Positions 6,846-55,402 of a DNA stretch of 64,000 bases are shown here, piece by piece. A program made the translations under genes and the position numbers. The notes beneath the pieces were generated by a model. It was not told the origin of the DNA. It searched no databases and was given only the letters and a program-made list of their open reading frames with translations. Origin of the DNA: Streptantibioticus ferralitis (lineage in GTDB: Bacteria; Actinomycetota; Actinomycetes; Streptomycetales; Streptomycetaceae); contig NZ_JARHTQ010000002.1 of assembly GCF_029223525.1 (NCBI RefSeq), positions 310,001-374,000 of the forward strand, written 5' to 3'. How positions within the stretch are numbered: the stretch's first letter is position 1; every line of letters begins with the position of its first letter.

Positions 6846-7553
6846 ATGTGCCGAGTCGTTGACCTCCAGCAGTCGGTGCTCGCCAAGAACGACGAGTACG
6901 CGCAGCGGTTGCGGGCCGACATGGCCGCCCGCGGCGCCACCGTCGTCAATCTGCTGTCCAGCCCGGGCAGCGGCAAGACGGCACTGCTGGAACTCGAACT
7001 GTCCACGGCCCGTCAGCGCGGCCTGACGGTGGCTGCGCTGACCGCGGACCTCGCCACCGAGAACGACGCGGTGCGCCTGGCCCGATCCGGAGCGCCGGTC
7101 AAACAGGTGCTCACGGACGGTCTGTGCCATCTGGAGGCCCGGATGCTCGCCGGCCACCTGGACGGGTGGCTGCCCGAGGCGACCCGGCTGCTGTTCGTGG
7201 AGAACGTGGGCAACCTGGTCTGCCCGGCCTCCTACGATCTGGGCGAGTCGCTGCGCGTGGTGCTCGCCTCCGTCACCGAGGGCGAGGACAAGCCGCTCAA
7301 GTACCCCACCGCCTTCGGGCTGGCCCACCTGGTCGTGGTGACCAAGACCGACATCGCGCGAGCCGTCGGCTTCGACGAGGCGGCGTTCCGCGCCAACGTC
7401 GCGCAGGTGAACCCCGGTGTCGAGGTGCTGCTCACCTCCGCCCGCCGCGGACAGGGCGTCGGCGCCCTCCTCGACCGGGCGCTGGCCGCCGGGGACGGCG
7501 CCGAGGTCCACCGACCGGTGATGGCCGTGCCGTCCGCCCACCACCACTCGTGA
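6846..7553 (+). CDS. hypB: hydrogenase nickel incorporation GTPase HypB
   Basis: A 235-residue SIMIBI-class GTPase. The P-loop SSPGSGKTALLE lies at about residues 37-48, the metal-binding switch ENVGNLVCP at about 119-127, and a TKTD guanine-recognition motif near residue 159. The N-terminus lacks the high-affinity CxxCGC nickel site and the long histidine stretch of some HypB proteins, but it ends in HHHS. An ATG three bases after hypA with GAGGAG upstream fixes the start. Its stop overlaps the GTG of hypF. It hydrolyses GTP to drive nickel transfer with HypA. Confidence 0.95.
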   Translation: MCRVVDLQQSVLAKNDEYAQRLRADMAARGATVVNLLSSPGSGKTALLELELSTARQRGLTVAALTADLATENDAVRLARSGAPVKQVLTDGLCHLEARMLAGHLDGWLPEATRLLFVENVGNLVCPASYDLGESLRVVLASVTEGEDKPLKYPTAFGLAHLVVVTKTDIARAVGFDEAAFRANVAQVNPGVEVLLTSARRGQGVGALLDRALAAGDGAEVHRPVMAVPSAHHHS

Positions 7554-9919
7554 CGCAGCAACGGGAGATGGTGCCGAGCGCCGCACCGGTACAGCGCCGC
7601 CGGGTCACCGTGCGAGGGGTGGTGCAGGGCGTGGGGTTCCGGCCCTTCGTCTTCACCCTCGCCACCGAGCTGGGGTTGGCCGGGCATGTGACGAACACCT
7701 CCGAGGGCGTCCTCGCCGAGGTCGAGGGCGATCCACAGGTGCTGGCCGCGTTCTGCGACCGGCTCACGGCCGACGCGCCGCCGCTGTCCGTGGTCGAATC
7801 GGTCGTCCATGAGCCGGTCGCGCCGACCGCCGCCACCGGGTTCGCCATCCTGCCCTCCAGCGCGGGCGGACAGCCGCGCACCCTGGTGTCGCCGGACACC
7901 GCCACCTGCCGCGACTGCCTTGCCGAACTGGCCGATCCGGACGATCGCCGCCACCGCCATCCGTTCATCACCTGTACGCACTGCGGACCGCGCTTCACGA
8001 TCGTCACCGGACTGCCCTACGACCGCGCCAACACCACGATGGCCCGGTTCGCGATGTGTCCGGACTGCGCCCGGGAGTACGCGGATCCCGCCGACCGCCG
8101 CTTCCACGCCCAGCCCGTCGCCTGCCACGCCTGCGGGCCCCGGCTGCGGCTGCTCGAACCGTCGCCGGAGCGTGCGGCGTCCGGTGCGCAGGCGCTGGCC
8201 CGGGCCCGGCGGCTGCTGGCGGCGGGTGCGGTGCTGGCGGTCAAGGGACTCGGCGGCTACCACCTCGCCTGTGACGCGGCTGATCCGGACGCGGTCATGA
8301 CGCTGCGCCGCCGCAAGGCGCGCGGTGACAAGCCGTTCGCGCTGATGGCGCGGGACATCGCCGATGTGGGGCGGCTGGTGCATCTGGGGCCGCGGGAGCG
8401 GGAGTTGCTCACCGGTACCGTCCGGCCGATCGTACTGATGCGCCGGCGCCAAGGGGCCGAACGGCCCTGGGACGCCCTGCCGGTGGCCGAGCCCGTGGCG
8501 CCCGGCAGCCCCGACCTCGGCGTCATGCTGCCGTACACCCCGCTGCACCACCTGCTGCTGGGCCTGCCGGGCGATCCGCCGGGCCCTCGGCTGCTCGTGA
8601 TGACCAGTGGGAATCTCGCCGGCGAGCCGATCGTCACCGACGATGACGAGGCCCGTGAGCGGCTGGCCGGTCTGGCCGACGCCTGGCTGGTCCACAACCG
8701 CCCGATCCATGTGCCCTGCGACGACTCGGTGGTCCGGGTCTGCGACGGTGCCGAACTGCTGGTTCGCCGCTCCCGCGGGTACGCGCCGCTGCCGTTGACG
8801 CTGCCGGTACCGGTGCGGGCGGCCCTCGCCGTCGGCGGAGACCTGAAGAACACATTCTGCGTGGCCGAGGGACGGCACGCCTGGCTGTCCGCGCACATCG
8901 GCGACATGGACGACCTGGCGACGCAGCGCGCCTTCGACCGCGCGGTACGGCAGTTGACCGCGATCAGCGGAGTGGAACCGCGGTTGCTGGCAGTAGACCG
9001 GCACCCGGGCTACCGCTCCATGCGGTGGGCGCGGCGCCATGCCGACGGCCGACCGCTGGCGTACGTCCAGCACCATCACGCGCACATCGCGTCGGCCATG
9101 GCGGACGGCGGCCTGGACGGCGGCCGCCGGGTGATCGGGGTCGCCTTCGACGGCACCGGCTACGGCGACGACGGCGCGGTGTGGGGCGGGGAGGTGCTGC
9201 TCGCCGACTATGCCGGGTTCCACCGCTTCGCACAGCTCGCCTATGTGCCGTTGCCGGGCGGGGACTCCGCGGTGCACCGCCCGTACCGGATGGCGCTGGC
9301 CCACCTGCGCGGCGCGGGACTTCAGTGGTCGGCCGACCTGCCCTGCACGGCGGCCTGCCCGCCGACCGAACTGCGGGTGCTGGAGGACCAGTTGGCGCGG
9401 GGCCTGGGCTGCGTGCCCACCTCCAGCATGGGGCGGCTGTTCGACGCGGTCTCCTCGCTCGCCGGAGTCTGCCACCGGGCGCGGTACGAGGCCCAGGCGG
9501 CCATCGAACTGGAGGCCGCAGCCCTGGCCGGGGACCCACGGGCGCCCGGATACGCCTTCGCACTGCGCCGCGGTGGGCCGGAGCCGGGCGCGGCCGAACT
9601 GGTCGCTGATCCGGCGCCGGTGCTCGCCGCCGTCATCGCCGACCTGCGGGCGGGCGCCAACGCCGCACAGTTCGCGGTGCGTTTCCACCACGCGGTCGCC
9701 GACCTCGTCCGCCAGCTCTGCGTCATGGCGCGGGAGCGGTACGGACTGGAGACGGCCGCGCTCACCGGCGGAGTCTTCGCCAACACCGTGCTGCTGTCGG
9801 CCTGTTCCCGGGCGCTGCGGCGGGAGGGCTTCACGGTGCTGCGGCACCGCCGTGTCCCGCCCAACGACGGAGGCCTGGCCCTCGGGCAGCTGATGGTGGC
9901 CGCGGCCCGCACCACCTGA
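7550..9919 (+). CDS. hypF: carbamoyltransferase HypF
   Basis: Makes the carbamoyl group that HypE turns into the cyanide ligands of the active-site iron. The 789-residue protein has the full domain order: acylphosphatase (VVQGVGFRPFVF near residue 25), two zinc fingers with paired CxxC motifs (CRDC/CTHC and CPDC/CHAC, about residues 120-200), a YrdC-like domain, and the C-terminal Kae1-like domain with QHHHAH near residue 505. The GTG at 7550 was preferred because it overlaps the hypB stop (GTGA), like other junctions here; an ATG 18 bases later is possible. The gene ends 32 bases before hypC. Confidence 0.95.
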   Translation: MTQQREMVPSAAPVQRRRVTVRGVVQGVGFRPFVFTLATELGLAGHVTNTSEGVLAEVEGDPQVLAAFCDRLTADAPPLSVVESVVHEPVAPTAATGFAILPSSAGGQPRTLVSPDTATCRDCLAELADPDDRRHRHPFITCTHCGPRFTIVTGLPYDRANTTMARFAMCPDCAREYADPADRRFHAQPVACHACGPRLRLLEPSPERAASGAQALARARRLLAAGAVLAVKGLGGYHLACDAADPDAVMTLRRRKARGDKPFALMARDIADVGRLVHLGPRERELLTGTVRPIVLMRRRQGAERPWDALPVAEPVAPGSPDLGVMLPYTPLHHLLLGLPGDPPGPRLLVMTSGNLAGEPIVTDDDEARERLAGLADAWLVHNRPIHVPCDDSVVRVCDGAELLVRRSRGYAPLPLTLPVPVRAALAVGGDLKNTFCVAEGRHAWLSAHIGDMDDLATQRAFDRAVRQLTAISGVEPRLLAVDRHPGYRSMRWARRHADGRPLAYVQHHHAHIASAMADGGLDGGRRVIGVAFDGTGYGDDGAVWGGEVLLADYAGFHRFAQLAYVPLPGGDSAVHRPYRMALAHLRGAGLQWSADLPCTAACPPTELRVLEDQLARGLGCVPTSSMGRLFDAVSSLAGVCHRARYEAQAAIELEAAALAGDPRAPGYAFALRRGGPEPGAAELVADPAPVLAAVIADLRAGANAAQFAVRFHHAVADLVRQLCVMARERYGLETAALTGGVFANTVLLSACSRALRREGFTVLRHRRVPPNDGGLALGQLMVAAARTT

Positions 9920-50066: not shown

Positions 50067-50657
50067 ATGGGCTCGAAGCGGCAGCACAACGGGCAACACG
50101 ATGGGCAGTTTGACGGGCAGTTGGCCAATCTGGAGGACATTCCGGTGCTCATCGCCGGGGGTGAGATCGGAACCGGGAACCGCCAGGAAGCACATGAGGC
50201 CGGCCCCACCCGCATCGAGGCGAAGAACCTGCAGGCGGAGGTCGATCTGCACGTCTGCATGGGCCTGAACGCGTGCAAGGGACATGGGCACGGCGGCACC
50301 GGTCTGATGGCCGGGATGGGAGAGTGCGCCACGGTCTGGCACATCTGCCACGGCGCCAACGAGTGCCGGGGCCAAGGCGGCTGCGGATACAGCGGCTCCG
50401 ACGCGGAGCAGGCCAAACCGGGCGACCAGACGTGCCGTTGGAACGGCAGCTGCGCCAGCCCGATCAACGAGAGCCGGGTGCACGCCGCCGGGCCCTACCG
50501 CGGCACCAGTGTGTGGAAGCGGGCGCGCCAGATCTTCGAGCACCGGATGTTCGAGTCGGGCATCGCGTTCGGGCCCGCCCCCGGCGAGGGCTACCCGGAC
50601 GACCTGGTCCCCAGCTACGAGAAGAAGCGCGGCACCCCGCACTCCTCCGGCTCATGA
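50067..50657 (+). CDS. cysteine-rich substrate/precursor protein of the DUF692 (MNIO) operon
   Basis: A 196-residue protein without signal peptide, start ATG 50067 behind GAGGAGGAGG. An acidic/Gln-rich N-terminus (residues 1-60) leads to a core with eight cysteines at 64, 70, 87, 94, 100, 106, 123 and 129. Most are spaced C-x5-C and sit in repeats: [29 protein letters not shown]. The C-terminal part has no cysteine. The C-x-G-x-N-x-C-[KR]-G pattern is that of bufferin-like substrates whose cysteines are oxidised by DUF692 enzymes; this makes it the probable modified, metal-binding product. Role inferred from motif and operon. Confidence 0.75.
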
Positions 50658-50670
50658 GCGGCACCGCCCA

Positions 50671-51591
50671 GTGAGCAGCGGCCACCACCCGCCCGCCGCC
50701 CGATCACGGCCGGTCCCGGCAGCGGACCTCGGCCTCGGCGTCGGACTGCGCTCCCCGCACTTCGCCCATGTGCTGAGCCACTGGCCCGAGGTGGAGTGGT
50801 TCGAGATCATCTCCGAGAACTTCATGGACTCCGGCGGCTATCCGCGCCATGCGCTCGACCGCATCGCCGAGCGCTACCCGATCGTCATGCACGGCGTTTC
50901 CCTGTCGGTGGGCAGTACCGACCCGCTGGACTTCGGCTATCTCGACCGGCTGCGCCGCCTGGCGGACGCCACCAGGGCGCGCTGGGTCTCCGACCATGTG
51001 TGCTGGACCGGGGTGGCCGGGCTCAACACCCATGACCTGCTGCCGGTCCCGTTCACCGAGGAGTCGCTGGCCCATGTGGTCCGCAGGGTCAAGGTGGTCC
51101 AGGACGTACTGGAACGCCCGCTGGTCCTGGAGAACCCCAGCACCTACGCGGCCTTCTCCGGCGCGGCCATGTCCGAGTGGGAGTTCCTCGCACGGCTGGC
51201 CACCGAGTCCGGCTGTGGACTGCTGCTGGACGTCAACAACGTCTACGTCTCGGCGTTCAACCATGACTTCGACCCCGAGGAGTACGTGCGGGCGCTACCG
51301 CACGACCGGGTGGTGCAGATCCATCTCGCCGGTCACTCCGACATGGGCACGCATATCGTGGACACCCATGACCAGCCGGTCGCCGAGCCCGTGTGGCGGC
51401 TGTACGAACTTGCCACCAGCCTGACCGGGCCGGTTCCCACACTGCTGGAATGGGACGACCACATCCCGCAATTCCCTGAACTGCTCGCGGAGTTGGACAA
51501 GGCGCGCCGGTACACCGCCGTGTCCGACGCCGAAGCGCGGGCCGAGAGCCGCACCGCGGTCCCGGTGGCGATGCCGGTGCGCTGTGGCTAG
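50671..51591 (+). CDS. DUF692 multinuclear non-haem iron oxidative enzyme (MbnB/BufB-like)
   Basis: A 306-residue TIM-barrel enzyme of the MNIO superfamily. Metal ligands visible in order: [67 protein letters not shown] and LEWDDH. Such enzymes use two or three irons and oxygen to turn cysteines in a peptide into oxazolone/thioamide, thiooxazole or related groups. GTG 50671 follows the precursor stop by 13 bases; its end overlaps the DUF2063 gene by eight bases. Target is presumably the cysteine-rich protein just upstream. Confidence 0.9.
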
Positions 51592-52420
51592 CCCGCCCGC
51601 GCTCGCCGAGGCGCAGCGCTGGCTCCAGCACGCGGTCCTCGCACAGCACCCGCCGTCGCAGCCGGTCGAGGACATGCTGACCGCCTCTTCGCGGCTCGGC
51701 GCCGCACAGCGCCTCGGGGTCTACCGGCGCGGCTACCGGCTGCGGCTGCTGCAGGCGATGCGCGGACTGCACCCGGGGCTGCGCGCCCTGCTGGGCCCGG
51801 AGTTGTTCGACGACTTCGCCCTGGACTACCTGGACGCCTGCCCGTCCGGCTCGTACACGCTGCAACGGCTGGACGAGCGGTTCGCCGGCCATCTCGCGGC
51901 AGGTCGGCCGGACCGGGAACAGCCGGTGCGCCTGCGCGAGACCTGGATCGACGTGATGATCGACCTGGCCCGCTACGAGCGGGTGTTCGCCGAGGTCTAC
52001 GACGGTCCTGGCACCGAGGGCACGGGGATACCGACGTGGACCGGTCCGTTGGAGTCGGCACCGGAACTGCTCGGCCGGCGCGTGCTGTTGGCGCCTTGTC
52101 TTCGGGTGCTGCGACTGTGCGCGCCGGTCCACACGTACCTCGCCGCGGTCCGCCGGGGCCGTCGACCGGAACCGCCCGCCCCGCGGCCGGTATGGCTCGC
52201 CGTCTCGCGCCGGGACTACGTGGTCACCGCGACCGAGATCGCGTCCGACTCCTACCAGTTCCTGGCGGCGCTGCTCGGGGGCGCCGCTGTCCGCGTGGCG
52301 GCCGTCGAGGCGGGGATGGACACCGCCGACGCCGTGAACCGGCTCCGCGGGTGGGCGGCGAACGGCTGGGCGCGCGGACTGGCTCGCGCTCAGCCGTTCG
52401 CCGTACCGGCCTCGGCGTAG
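51584..52420 (+). CDS. DUF2063 partner protein (BufC/HvfC-like)
   Basis: A 278-residue protein of the DUF2063 family, named for a putative DNA-binding region but better known as the substrate-recognition partner of DUF692 enzymes. [54 protein letters not shown] (residues 43-96) is the conserved helical domain; the rest contains a beta region with [12 protein letters not shown]. It is translated from a GTG inside the last codons of the DUF692 gene, so the two are coupled and likely form a complex that docks the precursor. Confidence 0.85.
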
Positions 52421-52467
52421 GACCGGTGAGGAGCGATTTCAACCAGCCCTGTCTGCAAGGAGAAACC

Positions 52468-53703
52468 ATGGCATCCCCCACCACCACCGAGATCAGCCTG
52501 CCACCGATCGTCCTCAGCTCGCCGGTCGATCCAACCACCGAGATCAGCGATGTCAGCCAGCTGATCAACCATCTCAAACAGGCCGCGTACCTGGAGATGT
52601 CCACCATCCCCATGTATCTCTACGCGTCGTTCTCGATCGGTTCCCGCGGCTACTCGCAGTGGGACCCCGGGATGGGGGCGTTCCGGCTGATTCGCAGCAT
52701 CGTGGTCGAGGAGATGCTGCACCTGTGCCTGGTCCGCAACCTGCTGGTGGCGCTCGGCTCCGACGAGATCGCCTTCTACTCGAAGGACTTCATGCCGAAG
52801 TACCCGTCGCCCATGCTGCACCGCCACCCCGAGCTGATCCTGCATCTGGGGCCCTGTGACAAGAAGTTGGTGCGGGACGTGTTCATGGAGTTCGAGCGGC
52901 CCAAGCCCAGGAAGGGCGAAGGGCCGCCGCCTCCCGGTCAGTACGCCACCATCGGCGAGTTCTACAAGGCGGTCGGCAAGGGGCTCGCCGCCCTCGACAA
53001 GAAGATGGGGCCCGCGCTGTGGCGGCACAACCGCCCGGAGTTGCAGTACGTGGCCGCGTACTGGAACAAGGACGGCGGCGGTGCACCGGTGCTGGTCCAC
53101 AACCTGAAGACCGCCAAGGACGCCCTGAAGATCATCGTGGAGCAGGGGGAGGGCATCGACCCCGACAAGCCCTCGGTGCCGATCGATCCGCTCAAGCCCA
53201 TCCCGGGCCTGGACGAGCTGCCGCACTACACCAAGTTCAAGCGCATCGCGGACGGCGTCGAGCCGTTGGGCCCGGTGTGGGCGCTGCCCACCGACCCGTG
53301 CGCCAAGATGTACGACGGCGACGCCGCGGTGAAGGCCGTCAACACCCTGTTCAACGCGATGTACTGCTATGTGCTGCACATGCTGGACGTCATGTACCAC
53401 ACCCCGTGGAAGGACGTGGAGCCCGGCAAGCACAGCAAGCGCTACGGACTGGAGCGCACCTTCATGTCGGCGATGCAGGGCGTGCTGGTGACCGTGGCGG
53501 ACATGATGGTCGCCACCCGCACCACGGTGGGCGACCTGGCTGTGCAGTACAACGCCGCGCCGACCTTCGAGTACCACAAGCTGCCGAAAACCGGGAAGCG
53601 CAAGCACCTCATCGAGCTGTGCGACAAGGCGATGACCTACTTCCCGCAGCTCGGCGGGGACAACAGCGTGCGCTGGCTGCTCGGCAAGATGCCCGACCTG
53701 TGA
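52468..53703 (+). CDS. large ferritin-like domain protein (VioB/IPD-synthase type)
   Basis: A 411-residue protein. The first 100 residues are a four-helix ferritin-like di-iron half: YLEMSTIPMYLYASFS (Glu43) and IVVEEMLHLCLVRNLL (Glu82, His85) give an ExnExxH pattern. A second half with helices FNAMYCYVLHMLDVMYH and a late TFMSAMQGVLVTVADMMVA follows. Layout matches the iminophenyl-pyruvate-dimer-synthase/ferritin-like family seen in violacein VioB-type proteins. ATG 52468 follows AAGGAGAAACC, 47 bases after the DUF2063 gene. It ends the operon. It could add a further oxidation or supply iron; unproven. Confidence 0.85.
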   Translation: MASPTTTEISLPPIVLSSPVDPTTEISDVSQLINHLKQAAYLEMSTIPMYLYASFSIGSRGYSQWDPGMGAFRLIRSIVVEEMLHLCLVRNLLVALGSDEIAFYSKDFMPKYPSPMLHRHPELILHLGPCDKKLVRDVFMEFERPKPRKGEGPPPPGQYATIGEFYKAVGKGLAALDKKMGPALWRHNRPELQYVAAYWNKDGGGAPVLVHNLKTAKDALKIIVEQGEGIDPDKPSVPIDPLKPIPGLDELPHYTKFKRIADGVEPLGPVWALPTDPCAKMYDGDAAVKAVNTLFNAMYCYVLHMLDVMYHTPWKDVEPGKHSKRYGLERTFMSAMQGVLVTVADMMVATRTTVGDLAVQYNAAPTFEYHKLPKTGKRKHLIELCDKAMTYFPQLGGDNSVRWLLGKMPDL

Positions 53704-53723
53704 GCCGGCTCGGCTGACCGGAA

Positions 53724-53769
53724 GCGGGAGACGGCGAGCCCTCCGTTCCTCGGTGGGCTCGCCGCCCGC
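53724..53769. terminator. terminator between the MNIO operon and the PLP enzyme gene
   Basis: A 15-base-pair G-C-rich stem with a three-base AGA bulge and a 13-base loop lies 20 bases after the ferritin-like gene, against the convergent stop at 53771. Confidence 0.8.
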
Positions 53770-53770
53770 G

Positions 53771-55276
53771 TCAGACGGTCGCGTCGGCGGTCGGCTGCCA
53801 ACCGATCTTCGGTGCGTGGGAGAGGAGTTGCCCCAGAGCCTCGCCGATCAGCTTGACGGCCTTGGTGACCGTCTCGCGGGCGTAGGCCGTGAAGCACAGA
53901 CGGAAGTAGCCGGGCTCAGGGCAGGACAGGGTCGTGCCGGGGAGCAGCTGTACGCCGGTCCGCTCGGCGATGTACCACCGCAGCAGTTCCTCGGCGGGCG
54001 GGATGTCCCGGAAGACGATCGGAAGTCGGCGGCGCTCCGACTCCGGAAGGCAGTCGTGGAAACGCCGCGGTTCGGGGAATCGCTCCCGCAGGCAGTCGAG
54101 CAGATCCACCGGCGGCTGGTTGAAATACGGCAGGTAGTTCCGCAGATCGAGCAGGAAGAACTGCGCCGGATTGGCCTTCTCCCGGTACACATACGGAAGG
54201 CCCGCCTCCTGGAGCGCTGCGCGGACGCCGGCGAAGTTCGCGGTGAGCGTCTTGCCGTACTCCTTCATCAGTGTCGCGGTGTACGGCTCGCTGTCATGGC
54301 CGCGGCTCTCCAACAGTTTGCCGATCACGAAGTGCTTGAGGGAGTCGAACGGGCTGAACCAGGAGAGGGTTTCCCGGCTACTGGTGCCGCCCATGGCCTC
54401 ATGGACCACGGGCGAGCGGGAGATCACCACTCCCGCGCGGAATCCGGAGAGGCCGAAGTCCTTCGCGAAACCCCACACGACGTGGATCCGGTCGCTGTTG
54501 CCCGGTTTCTTGTAGGCGTCCAATGCGAGCGCACTGGTGAACGAAGGGGTGGCGCCCGCGATTTGGGAATGCGCGTACATCTCGTCCGAGATGATGTGCA
54601 TCTGCGGGTCGCGTTCCAGCGCCCACGAGTAGATCGATTCCAGCAGCGCTTTGTCGTAGTTGACGCCGAGCGGGTTGTGCGGATTGGTGAGGACCAGCAG
54701 TTTCGGCGGGACGGGCTGTGCGGCGTAGGCGTCCTGGAGGTTCTTCAGGGTCAGTGTGAACGGCGGGTCGCCCTCGGGTGAGACCGGGGCGGGGACGCAG
54801 ACCAGGCCAGGACGTTGCTGGAAGCACCACTTGAAGCCCTGCCAGAACGGCGCGGGCAGCAGTACGCCGTCGCCTGACTTGAGGGCGCCGCCCTCCTTCA
54901 GCGCGAAGGCCAGGCATTCCAGGGCGCCGGACACGCCCGCGGTCCCGAAGACATCGCGCCAGTCGACGTCGACGTGGAAGGCACGGCTGAGCATCCGCGC
55001 CGTCTCCTGGCGCAGTTGGTCGGTTCCGTACGCTCTGGTGTATCTGATCCCGTTCTCCGGGAGAACGCCCAGCTGCTTGAACACCTTCTCCTTGAGGGAG
55101 TCGTAGAGCAGGACGTTCTCCGCGGTGGCGAGATTGACCGTCTTGGGGTGGTACTCCTGATACAGGGCGAGGCGCTGTTCCGGGTCGGCGACGTGCGCCA
55201 GCAGAGTTGACAGTTCGTCTGCTGCCAGGGCGTCGACCACGTGCTGCGCCGTCGTCGTGTCGGATTTCACGGTCAT
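53771..55276 (-). CDS. ACC-synthase-like fold-type I aminotransferase
   Basis: A 501-residue PLP enzyme. ATG 55276 with GCAGGAGAAGC upstream. Conserved phrases NLATAENVLLYDSL, TRAYGTDQLRQETA, FGTAGVSGALECLAF, LTNPHNPLGVNY, IISDEMYAHSQ and WGFAKDFGLSGFRAGVV (PLP lysine) follow the 1-aminocyclopropane-1-carboxylate synthase / class I aminotransferase pattern. SGFRAG and a final RLCFTAYA supply the carboxylate-binding arginines. ACC synthase itself, a gamma-elimination PLP lyase, or an aminotransferase for a specialised metabolite are all possible. No adjacent pathway gene tells which. Confidence 0.82.
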   Translation of the reverse strand: MTVKSDTTTAQHVVDALAADELSTLLAHVADPEQRLALYQEYHPKTVNLATAENVLLYDSLKEKVFKQLGVLPENGIRYTRAYGTDQLRQETARMLSRAFHVDVDWRDVFGTAGVSGALECLAFALKEGGALKSGDGVLLPAPFWQGFKWCFQQRPGLVCVPAPVSPEGDPPFTLTLKNLQDAYAAQPVPPKLLVLTNPHNPLGVNYDKALLESIYSWALERDPQMHIISDEMYAHSQIAGATPSFTSALALDAYKKPGNSDRIHVVWGFAKDFGLSGFRAGVVISRSPVVHEAMGGTSSRETLSWFSPFDSLKHFVIGKLLESRGHDSEPYTATLMKEYGKTLTANFAGVRAALQEAGLPYVYREKANPAQFFLLDLRNYLPYFNQPPVDLLDCLRERFPEPRRFHDCLPESERRRLPIVFRDIPPAEELLRWYIAERTGVQLLPGTTLSCPEPGYFRLCFTAYARETVTKAVKLIGEALGQLLSHAPKIGWQPTADATV

Positions 55277-55402
55277 GGTGCTTCTCCTGCGCGTCGTTGA
55301 GCGGAGTGAATTCGATGTCACATGACGCGCAGATGTTATCGCCGACGGTAATCAATTCCGGGGCGGCGCGATGGTCAGGCCGTCAGTTGATTCCGCTGAC
55401 GG

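Follow-up and report, generated by a model that had tools for sequence, protein, structure and literature searches.

A four-gene MNIO unit of actinomycetes joins a signal-less cysteine-rich protein to a ferritin-like partner and appears to be an offshoot of BufA2 systems

Positions 50067 to 53703 of a 64,000-nucleotide stretch of Streptantibioticus ferralitis DNA (contig NZ_JARHTQ010000002.1; the whole stretch is called the window below) carry four genes encoding a cysteine-rich, signal-less putative MNIO substrate (A), an MNIO (DUF692) of the BufB type (B), a DUF2063 partner (C) and a ferritin-like PF12902 protein (D). These genes form one operon-like unit, which sequence comparison places as a signal-less offshoot of BufA2 systems. 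B is an iron enzyme whose probable role is to modify the cysteines of A, a small internal protein. For the unit as a whole we tentatively propose, with somewhat less than even confidence, a four-gene maturation cassette that branched from BufA2 systems and in which mature A would be an accessory subunit of D, the two making up one oxidative enzyme. In the papers considered here, the peptides that MNIOs make are for the most part natural products and metal binders, periplasmic or other. In this unit the same enzyme type is linked with a signal-less protein and one particular ferritin-like enzyme, across actinomycete families and, as one chain, in a gammaproteobacterium.

A four-gene unit conserved among actinomycetes

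The gene for A (50067..50657; strand is + unless stated) encodes 196 aa from an ATG at 50067 to a stop codon at 50655-50657. It is followed by the genes for B (50671..51591; GTG start, 306 aa, PF05114 at 373 bits), C (51584..52420; 278 aa, PME-type 1 by its Pfam signature, PF09836 at 62.1 bits for a cut-off of 27.2) and D (52468..53703; 411 aa, PF12902 at 154.3 bits for a cut-off of 22.3). All four lie on one strand, with 13 nucleotides between A and B and 47 between C and D, and B and C overlap by eight bases (51584-51591, GTGGCTAG). The same overlap was found in 11 of the 12 intact loci for which the ends of B and C were computed. Reading frames, Pfam matches, close spacing and common strand bear out an earlier sequence-only reading of the window, which had described these four genes as a single operon and noted the eight-base overlap.

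We searched for A in 293 genomes of the same order (E 0.001). Nine gave a match, seven of them strong (E <=2.5e-53, the window's own genome included) and two weak. The weak ones (G031, E 6e-4; G108, E 1.7e-4) were dropped before counting, as was G022 (E 3.2e-4) from a phylum-wide search; the stretches of G108 and G022 matched by A contain internal stops, and other large open frames run over the dropped places (L010, L011 and L031). D gave 23 matches in these genomes at 1e-20, and identities of at least 40% (40-100%) were reached only in the seven genomes with A, the next genome standing at 37% over part of the protein. Similarly, B matched 263 of the 293 genomes, with at least 63% identity (63-100%, E <=4.9e-116) in the same seven; among the matches listed, the next two genomes stand at 37-39% (E 7e-52 and 9e-48). 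A, its B clade and its D clade co-occur in the same 7 of 293 genomes.

A scan of named genomes added seven A loci, from Streptomyces cahuitamycinicus, Kitasatospora xanthocidica and five Actinomadura, and the phylum-wide profile search of 396 genomes, in which no more than 8 candidates per genome were scored, returned at least two strong matches and added G383. The order A-B-C-D, which the sequence-only reading had suggested looking for in other actinomycetes, is co-conserved: it is kept in 13 of 15 A-bearing loci, the window included. One locus (L023) stops after B at a contig end. Another (L026, Kitasatospora xanthocidica, around 7947-9222) is a decayed remnant. Here A is joined to the end of B, and the beginning of C to the end of D, which looks like the loss of two interior stretches or a misassembly. 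Flanks differ between loci while the gene order stays, and, frames overlapping the four genes excepted, no other gene is common to three or more of 14 loci (clustered frames of at least 80 aa).

In two loci a gene for a PSDC-type phosphatidylserine decarboxylase (PF02666 and PF12588; L017 9466-10842 on the - strand, L018 4118-5428 on the + strand) lies 12-14 nucleotides upstream of A; two loci were too few to retain it as a conserved neighbour. No relative of A was found on plasmids at E 1e-5. A match on Tistrella pTM3 (E 0.8), with no Cys motif, MNIO or ferritin-like gene within 5 kb, was rejected, and none of 18 pattern matches for A in IMG/VR contigs was confirmed.

Protein A shares a core with BufA2

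A has eight cysteines and no hydrophobic N-terminal stretch. Twelve of the 14 relatives were aligned with it, all but L036 and the L026 remnant. As for the conservation of cysteines, which the earlier reading had proposed to examine, all eight (C64, C70, C87, C94, C100, C106, C123 and C129) are invariant in the 13 sequences. They lie in a conserved module of residues 61-130 (50247..50456), which is preceded by a variable region of residues 1-57, a possible leader by its pairwise identity (50067..50237), and followed by a conserved C-terminal segment of residues 142-178 (50490..50600; GP..G.SVW..AR..FE.RM...G..FGP.PG in the alignment of the 13 A proteins). Within the core, residues 58-178, pairwise identity averages 74%, against 21% in residues 1-57 and 27% beyond residue 178. 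Such a difference between core and N-terminus is more what one would expect of a functional protein than of a natural product under diversification. Three C-x5-C pairs are present (C64/C70, C94/C100 and C123/C129), the number read from the sequence alone; the pattern C-x-G-x-N-x-C-[KR]-G then assigned to all three fits only the first two, the third being CRWNGSC-AS.

The 13 proteins measure 184-293 residues and contain 8-13 cysteines (the start of the L016 protein is uncertain). The homologues of L017 and L018, both of 293 aa, have an additional C-terminal extension, which in L017 shows a weak Big_1 match (16.3 bits for a cut-off of 34.9). A Pfam scan of A found no family match. The Rv1733c family was rejected as a chance-level match (E 0.08, one of 13 members), and, this and BufA2 apart, neither Pfam nor NCBIfam gave any other family for the 13 members.

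Against the BufA2 model NF050166, A scores 21.1 bits for a cut-off of 60. The seven A proteins scored range from 13.6 to 22.2 bits, and three BufA2 controls from 88.5 to 105.6; on these scores A is not a bufferin. All 13 aligned A proteins match the model at E <=1 (best E 1.1e-4), and hhalign of the A alignment with five BufA2-type proteins gave a probability of 95 (E 2.7e-8, 35 columns, 43% identity). The aligned part of A covers residues 58-104 (C64-C100), with C106, C123 and C129 outside. By model matches and profile comparison, A descends from BufA2 or shares the BufA2 core. Throughout 296 genomes of the phylum, the BufA2 model gave two sub-threshold matches and none over the cut-off.

Export signals were judged from hydropathy, not with SignalP. 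The best 12-residue mean within the first 45 residues is at most 1.36 in the 13 A proteins, compared with 2.07-2.37 in five BufA2 controls. Accordingly, no Sec signal peptide is apparent in A, unlike in BufA2, and the lack of an export signal noted earlier for the window's protein appears to extend to all 13.

B is a BufB-type MNIO on a branch of its own

B scores above the cut-off of the curated NCBIfam BufB model NF050167 (371 bits for 310), and so do the seven other MNIOs tested, making eight of eight among the 16 in its clade (342-371 bits). The DUF2063 signature likewise exceeds its cut-off of 27.2 in all 12 partners tested (57.3-75.5 bits), a set that does not comprise those of L017, L036 and the near-copy L038. 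Since B passes the BufB model and the core of A is homologous to BufA2, the system may be called bufferin-like by descent. In this sense the proposal of a bufferin-like system stands; it does not extend to A itself, far below the BufA2 cut-off.

A tree of 35 MNIOs has a branch, supported at 100/99, that separates the 16 of A loci and of the fusion loci described below from 19 others. These others include BufA2-linked and DUF2282-linked MNIOs and the genome's own TIGR04222-linked one. The L023 MNIO is counted among the 16 though its D lies beyond the contig end, and 20 of 24 distant Streptomyces-type rows were dropped from this tree. A 49-row tree, built without duplicate loci and L026, recovered the same branch (100/98); 29 of its rows, with six added, make up the smaller tree. 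The nearest outsiders to the clade are BufA2-linked MNIOs of Pseudomonas and Thiothrix, so that a branch inside the BufA2 systems, with the fusion as one later form, would be the simplest history. Support for the exact place of Pseudoalteromonas within the clade is weak (82/53).

In the vicinity of plasmid operons of BufA2 or DUF2282 type there is a copper-resistance multicopper oxidase in L033, a heavy-metal P-type ATPase in L109, and a set of mercury resistance genes in L040.

Protein D and a fusion of D-like and A-like parts

The structural model of D (predicted template modelling score, pTM, 0.82; mean predicted local distance difference test, pLDDT, 76.3) contains two ferritin-like bundles, residues 27-269 and 284-409. 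It matches Caulobacter CC_0557 (3hl1) at a Foldseek E of 1.9e-7, with Z 22.9 and a root mean square deviation of 3.1 over 266 residues. The VIA-align list consists mostly of ferritin-type bundles, and the absence of a family from it is not evidence. Six residues, E43, E82, H85, E143, E228 and H253, look like a diiron-type ligand set and are conserved throughout 13 D proteins, the fusion and eight PF12902 proteins from other settings; the second bundle has no comparable set. An identity of D with VioB (iminophenyl-pyruvate dimer synthase, TIGR04492) was ruled out, the match being weak and partial (20.4 bits for a cut-off of 1250). A PF12902 domain also forms part of VioB.

Among 353 matching plasmid records, the MNIOs closest to B are those of two Pseudoalteromonas records (59%). 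In NC201 (L032) one open frame of 775 codons stands directly upstream of the MNIO gene, and MNIO and DUF2063 genes follow it in this order. The N-terminal part of the encoded protein is a PF12902 region (residues 51-380, 66.6 bits; E 1.3e-6 against D) with the six ligand positions of D. Its C-terminal part is an A-like Cys module holding SCKGSNDCKAQGGCGF...KCNNLGGCAVPIS, which hhalign aligns with A residues 88-140, the C94-C129 part, at 40% identity over 53 columns (E 7.1e-9). The same fusion protein is present in the P. piscicida record (99.4%). The system is thus not confined to actinomycetes, contrary to what had been supposed from the window alone. The fusion was found only through its MNIO and, with a shorter query, at E 3e-3; because the A search at E 1e-5 missed it, further fusions may have been missed as well.

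Together with the position of its MNIO in the actinomycete clade (100/99), the fusion makes D look like an integral partner. It would also mean that the module apparently matured by the MNIO is a working partner, or a part, of a diiron-type enzyme.

Elsewhere PF12902 genes were found without these companions. No MNIO or Cys motif occurs within 5 kb in 10 plasmid contexts (of 32 D-matching records) or within about 1.5 kb in 16 other actinomycete loci. In the eight annotated contexts of the 10, GMC oxidoreductases, ebo-type genes or a LodA/GoxA oxidase adjoin the PF12902 gene or lie nearby. In L099, L100 and L106 it comes directly after a GMC oxidoreductase gene, and another protein, of some 155-170 residues, is encoded close by; in L101 (Azospirillum) its neighbours are a LodA/GoxA oxidase gene and one resembling tryptophan 7-halogenase. 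In L097, L098 and L102 (Gloeothece, Aureibacter and Mycetohabitans) it is near ebo-type or 3-dehydroquinate synthase genes. Fungal PF12902 genes near lodA genes are mentioned in PMC4417212.

Downstream of the unit

A GC-rich hairpin lies 3' of D (about 53721..53772; -49 kcal/mol, z -3.57 in the RNA fold of 53700-53775) and likely marks the end of transcription between D and a convergent aminotransferase gene. It has no T run and is absent from the list of a consensus terminator scanner. What the sequence-only reading announced as a terminator is this strong hairpin. The convergent gene (53771-55321, - strand) encodes a pyridoxal phosphate aminotransferase whose top NCBIfam match is GntC (guanitoxin cyclodehydratase; 101 bits for a cut-off of 415); it is not common to other A loci.

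Proposed role and alternatives

In the cassette that we propose, B and C would oxidise the cysteines of A, by analogy most likely to Cu(I)-binding 5-thiooxazoles. PMC13097082 reports a broad involvement of pairs of MNIO and DUF2063-type partner in making 5-thiooxazoles, and products of such pairs with 5-thiooxazoles on Cys are described as binding copper there and in PMC12452194. A would stay in the cytosol. The mature protein would be a metal- or redox-bearing accessory subunit of D, which is the least certain step, so that the two would make up a single oxidative enzyme whose metal site derives from cysteine and is made after translation. That D works directly with modified A is favoured by the presence of D in 13 of 13 intact loci and by the fusion standing in the MNIO-substrate position; given the fusion, it is also likelier than the handling of iron that had been considered for D. 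A further claim, that the MNIO builds a cysteine-derived Cu- or Fe-binding site on a dedicated subunit, or on the Pseudoalteromonas C-terminal domain, of a diiron ferritin-like oxidase, is a doubtful one. The fused chain of a marine bacterium hints at an undescribed way of building a working part of an enzyme. If the claim of an MNIO-built metal site is true, MNIO chemistry would make the protein-derived metal cofactor of an enzyme and not only metal-scavenging peptides, and with A as a matured subunit of D, thiooxazole chemistry would join the routes to protein-derived cofactors.

Several observations weigh against this proposal. In L016 (G104), one of the 13 loci with the full order, the D gene (7329-8603) carries a TAG codon in frame while A, B and C look intact, and D may therefore not be needed in that locus. 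The sole production of 5-thiooxazoles by MNIO/DUF2063-type pairs is left open in PMC13097082. The predicted structure of A, made with seven sequences, has no confident fold (mean pLDDT 39.8, pTM 0.25) and was set aside. The BufA2 model, searched in six frames through the window's own genome, did not call A at E 0.001. No motif is shared upstream of A; one 9-mer, counted with its reverse complement, occurs in 4 of 14 upstream regions and was rejected as evidence of a regulatory motif. Finally, the fusion is known from two nearly identical plasmids only, and would be explained equally well by a tailoring enzyme joined to the substrate on which it acts.

D could instead be a second tailoring enzyme: once B and C have modified the cysteines, the diiron-type D would oxidise A further, by hydroxylation, crosslink or cleavage, to a doubly modified peptide or protein, and the Pseudoalteromonas protein would then hold enzyme and substrate in one chain, as in borosins. 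The place of D 3' of the modifying genes in the operon, its co-conservation with them and its conserved ligands all agree with this, as does its partial match to the oxidative enzyme VioB, weak and far below the cut-off as it is. However, the 10 plasmid PF12902 contexts without MNIO or Cys motif do not suggest a peptide-tailoring role elsewhere, and the core of A is nearly invariant, not diversifying. We consider this explanation rather unlikely and keep A as a metal-bearing subunit of D as the first choice, with D as a tailoring enzyme as the alternative.

The homology of its core to BufA2 also allows A to be seen as a cytosolic buffer of copper or soft metals, sequestering Cu(I) in its modified form like a bufferin, though inside the cell, with D handling iron or peroxide in the same stress. 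In favour, a copper-resistance multicopper oxidase and a heavy-metal P-type ATPase are encoded in the vicinity of plasmid BufA2 operons, and PMC12538549 discusses intracellular or membrane residence of an MNIO-made copper binder. That same paper hesitates over a copper-protective role, its system being neither expressed nor copper-responsive in the conditions tried. In addition, the loci have no metal-stress gene in common beside A-B-C-D, the missing upstream motif speaks against this explanation too, and co-regulation would not be enough to account for A-like and D-like parts in one chain. A buffer seems improbable to us. An unmodified A, a cysteine-rich iron or zinc protein beside B and C acting elsewhere, is very improbable: eight cysteines could bind metal without modification, but A occupies the precursor position of BufA-BufB-BufC operons and shares the BufA2 core, and B and the seven other clade MNIOs tested pass the bufferin-maturase model.

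Comparison with known systems

Neither the fusion nor the ferritin-like partner turned up in the open-access papers searched, and no paper among the matches listed joins MNIO/DUF692 or bufferins to PF12902 or to a ferritin-like partner. The MNIO landscape paper PMC12452194 uses neither 'ferritin' nor 'PF12902' in its main text, in line with the earlier view that the ferritin-like gene, a regular companion here, lies outside the described bufferin operons. PMC8224329, considered for bacteria with both DUF692 and ferritin, was discarded, the word 'ferritin' occurring only in its reference list.

The precursor family itself may already have a name. PMC12452194 describes adjamnio-I, an in silico family of 100 signal-less putative precursors of 122-293 residues and 8-21 Cys, encoded directly before an MNIO. 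A agrees, compared by description only, in length, cysteine number, lack of signal peptide and gene position, its longest homologues (293 residues) equalling the published maximum; since it fits these ranges, it may belong to adjamnio-I. By contrast, the major, though not the only, adjamnio-I organisation is given there as an MNIO with a PME-type 2 partner, which has no DUF2063 signature, whereas this signature is present in 12 of 12 partners tested here. That organisation names no ferritin-like gene, unlike the A operons. The pairing of signal-less A with DUF2063-type partners also runs against the correlation published in the same paper, by which precursors without signal peptide go with PME-type 2 partners.

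The captophorins (fontiphorin, oxazolin and gonophorin), as presented in PMC13097082, resemble the unit by an MNIO and a DUF2063-type partner acting on precursor cysteines, which for A is predicted. Unlike A, their precursors carry EGKCG repeats, and the word 'ferritin' is absent from that paper. The TIGR04222-MNIO pairs of actinomycetes likewise place an MNIO in Actinomycetota, and one is present in the same genome (contig C19:108934-111140, L019 and L108), where a second MNIO is followed by a TIGR04222 gene, this MNIO neighbour belonging to a membrane protein family according to PMC12452194. The MNIO so paired is only 37% identical to the window's B and distant in the tree. As for D, the PF12902 proteins represented by Caulobacter CC_0557 (3hl1) share its fold and conserved ligand set, but the 26 other contexts described above are without MNIO.

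With the BufA2 (Buf_6/12Cys) operons of BufA2-BufB-BufC type, the unit has in common the gene order, an MNIO above the BufB cut-off and the DUF2063 partner, as well as a core C-x-G-x-N-x-C-K-G ... C-x6-C ... C-[KR]-G-x-G with the same spacing of the third, fourth and fifth cysteines. Compared with BufA2, A is longer, has more invariant cysteines and a conserved C-terminal segment, and lacks an apparent export signal; its operons, unlike those of BufA2, regularly carry a ferritin-like gene.

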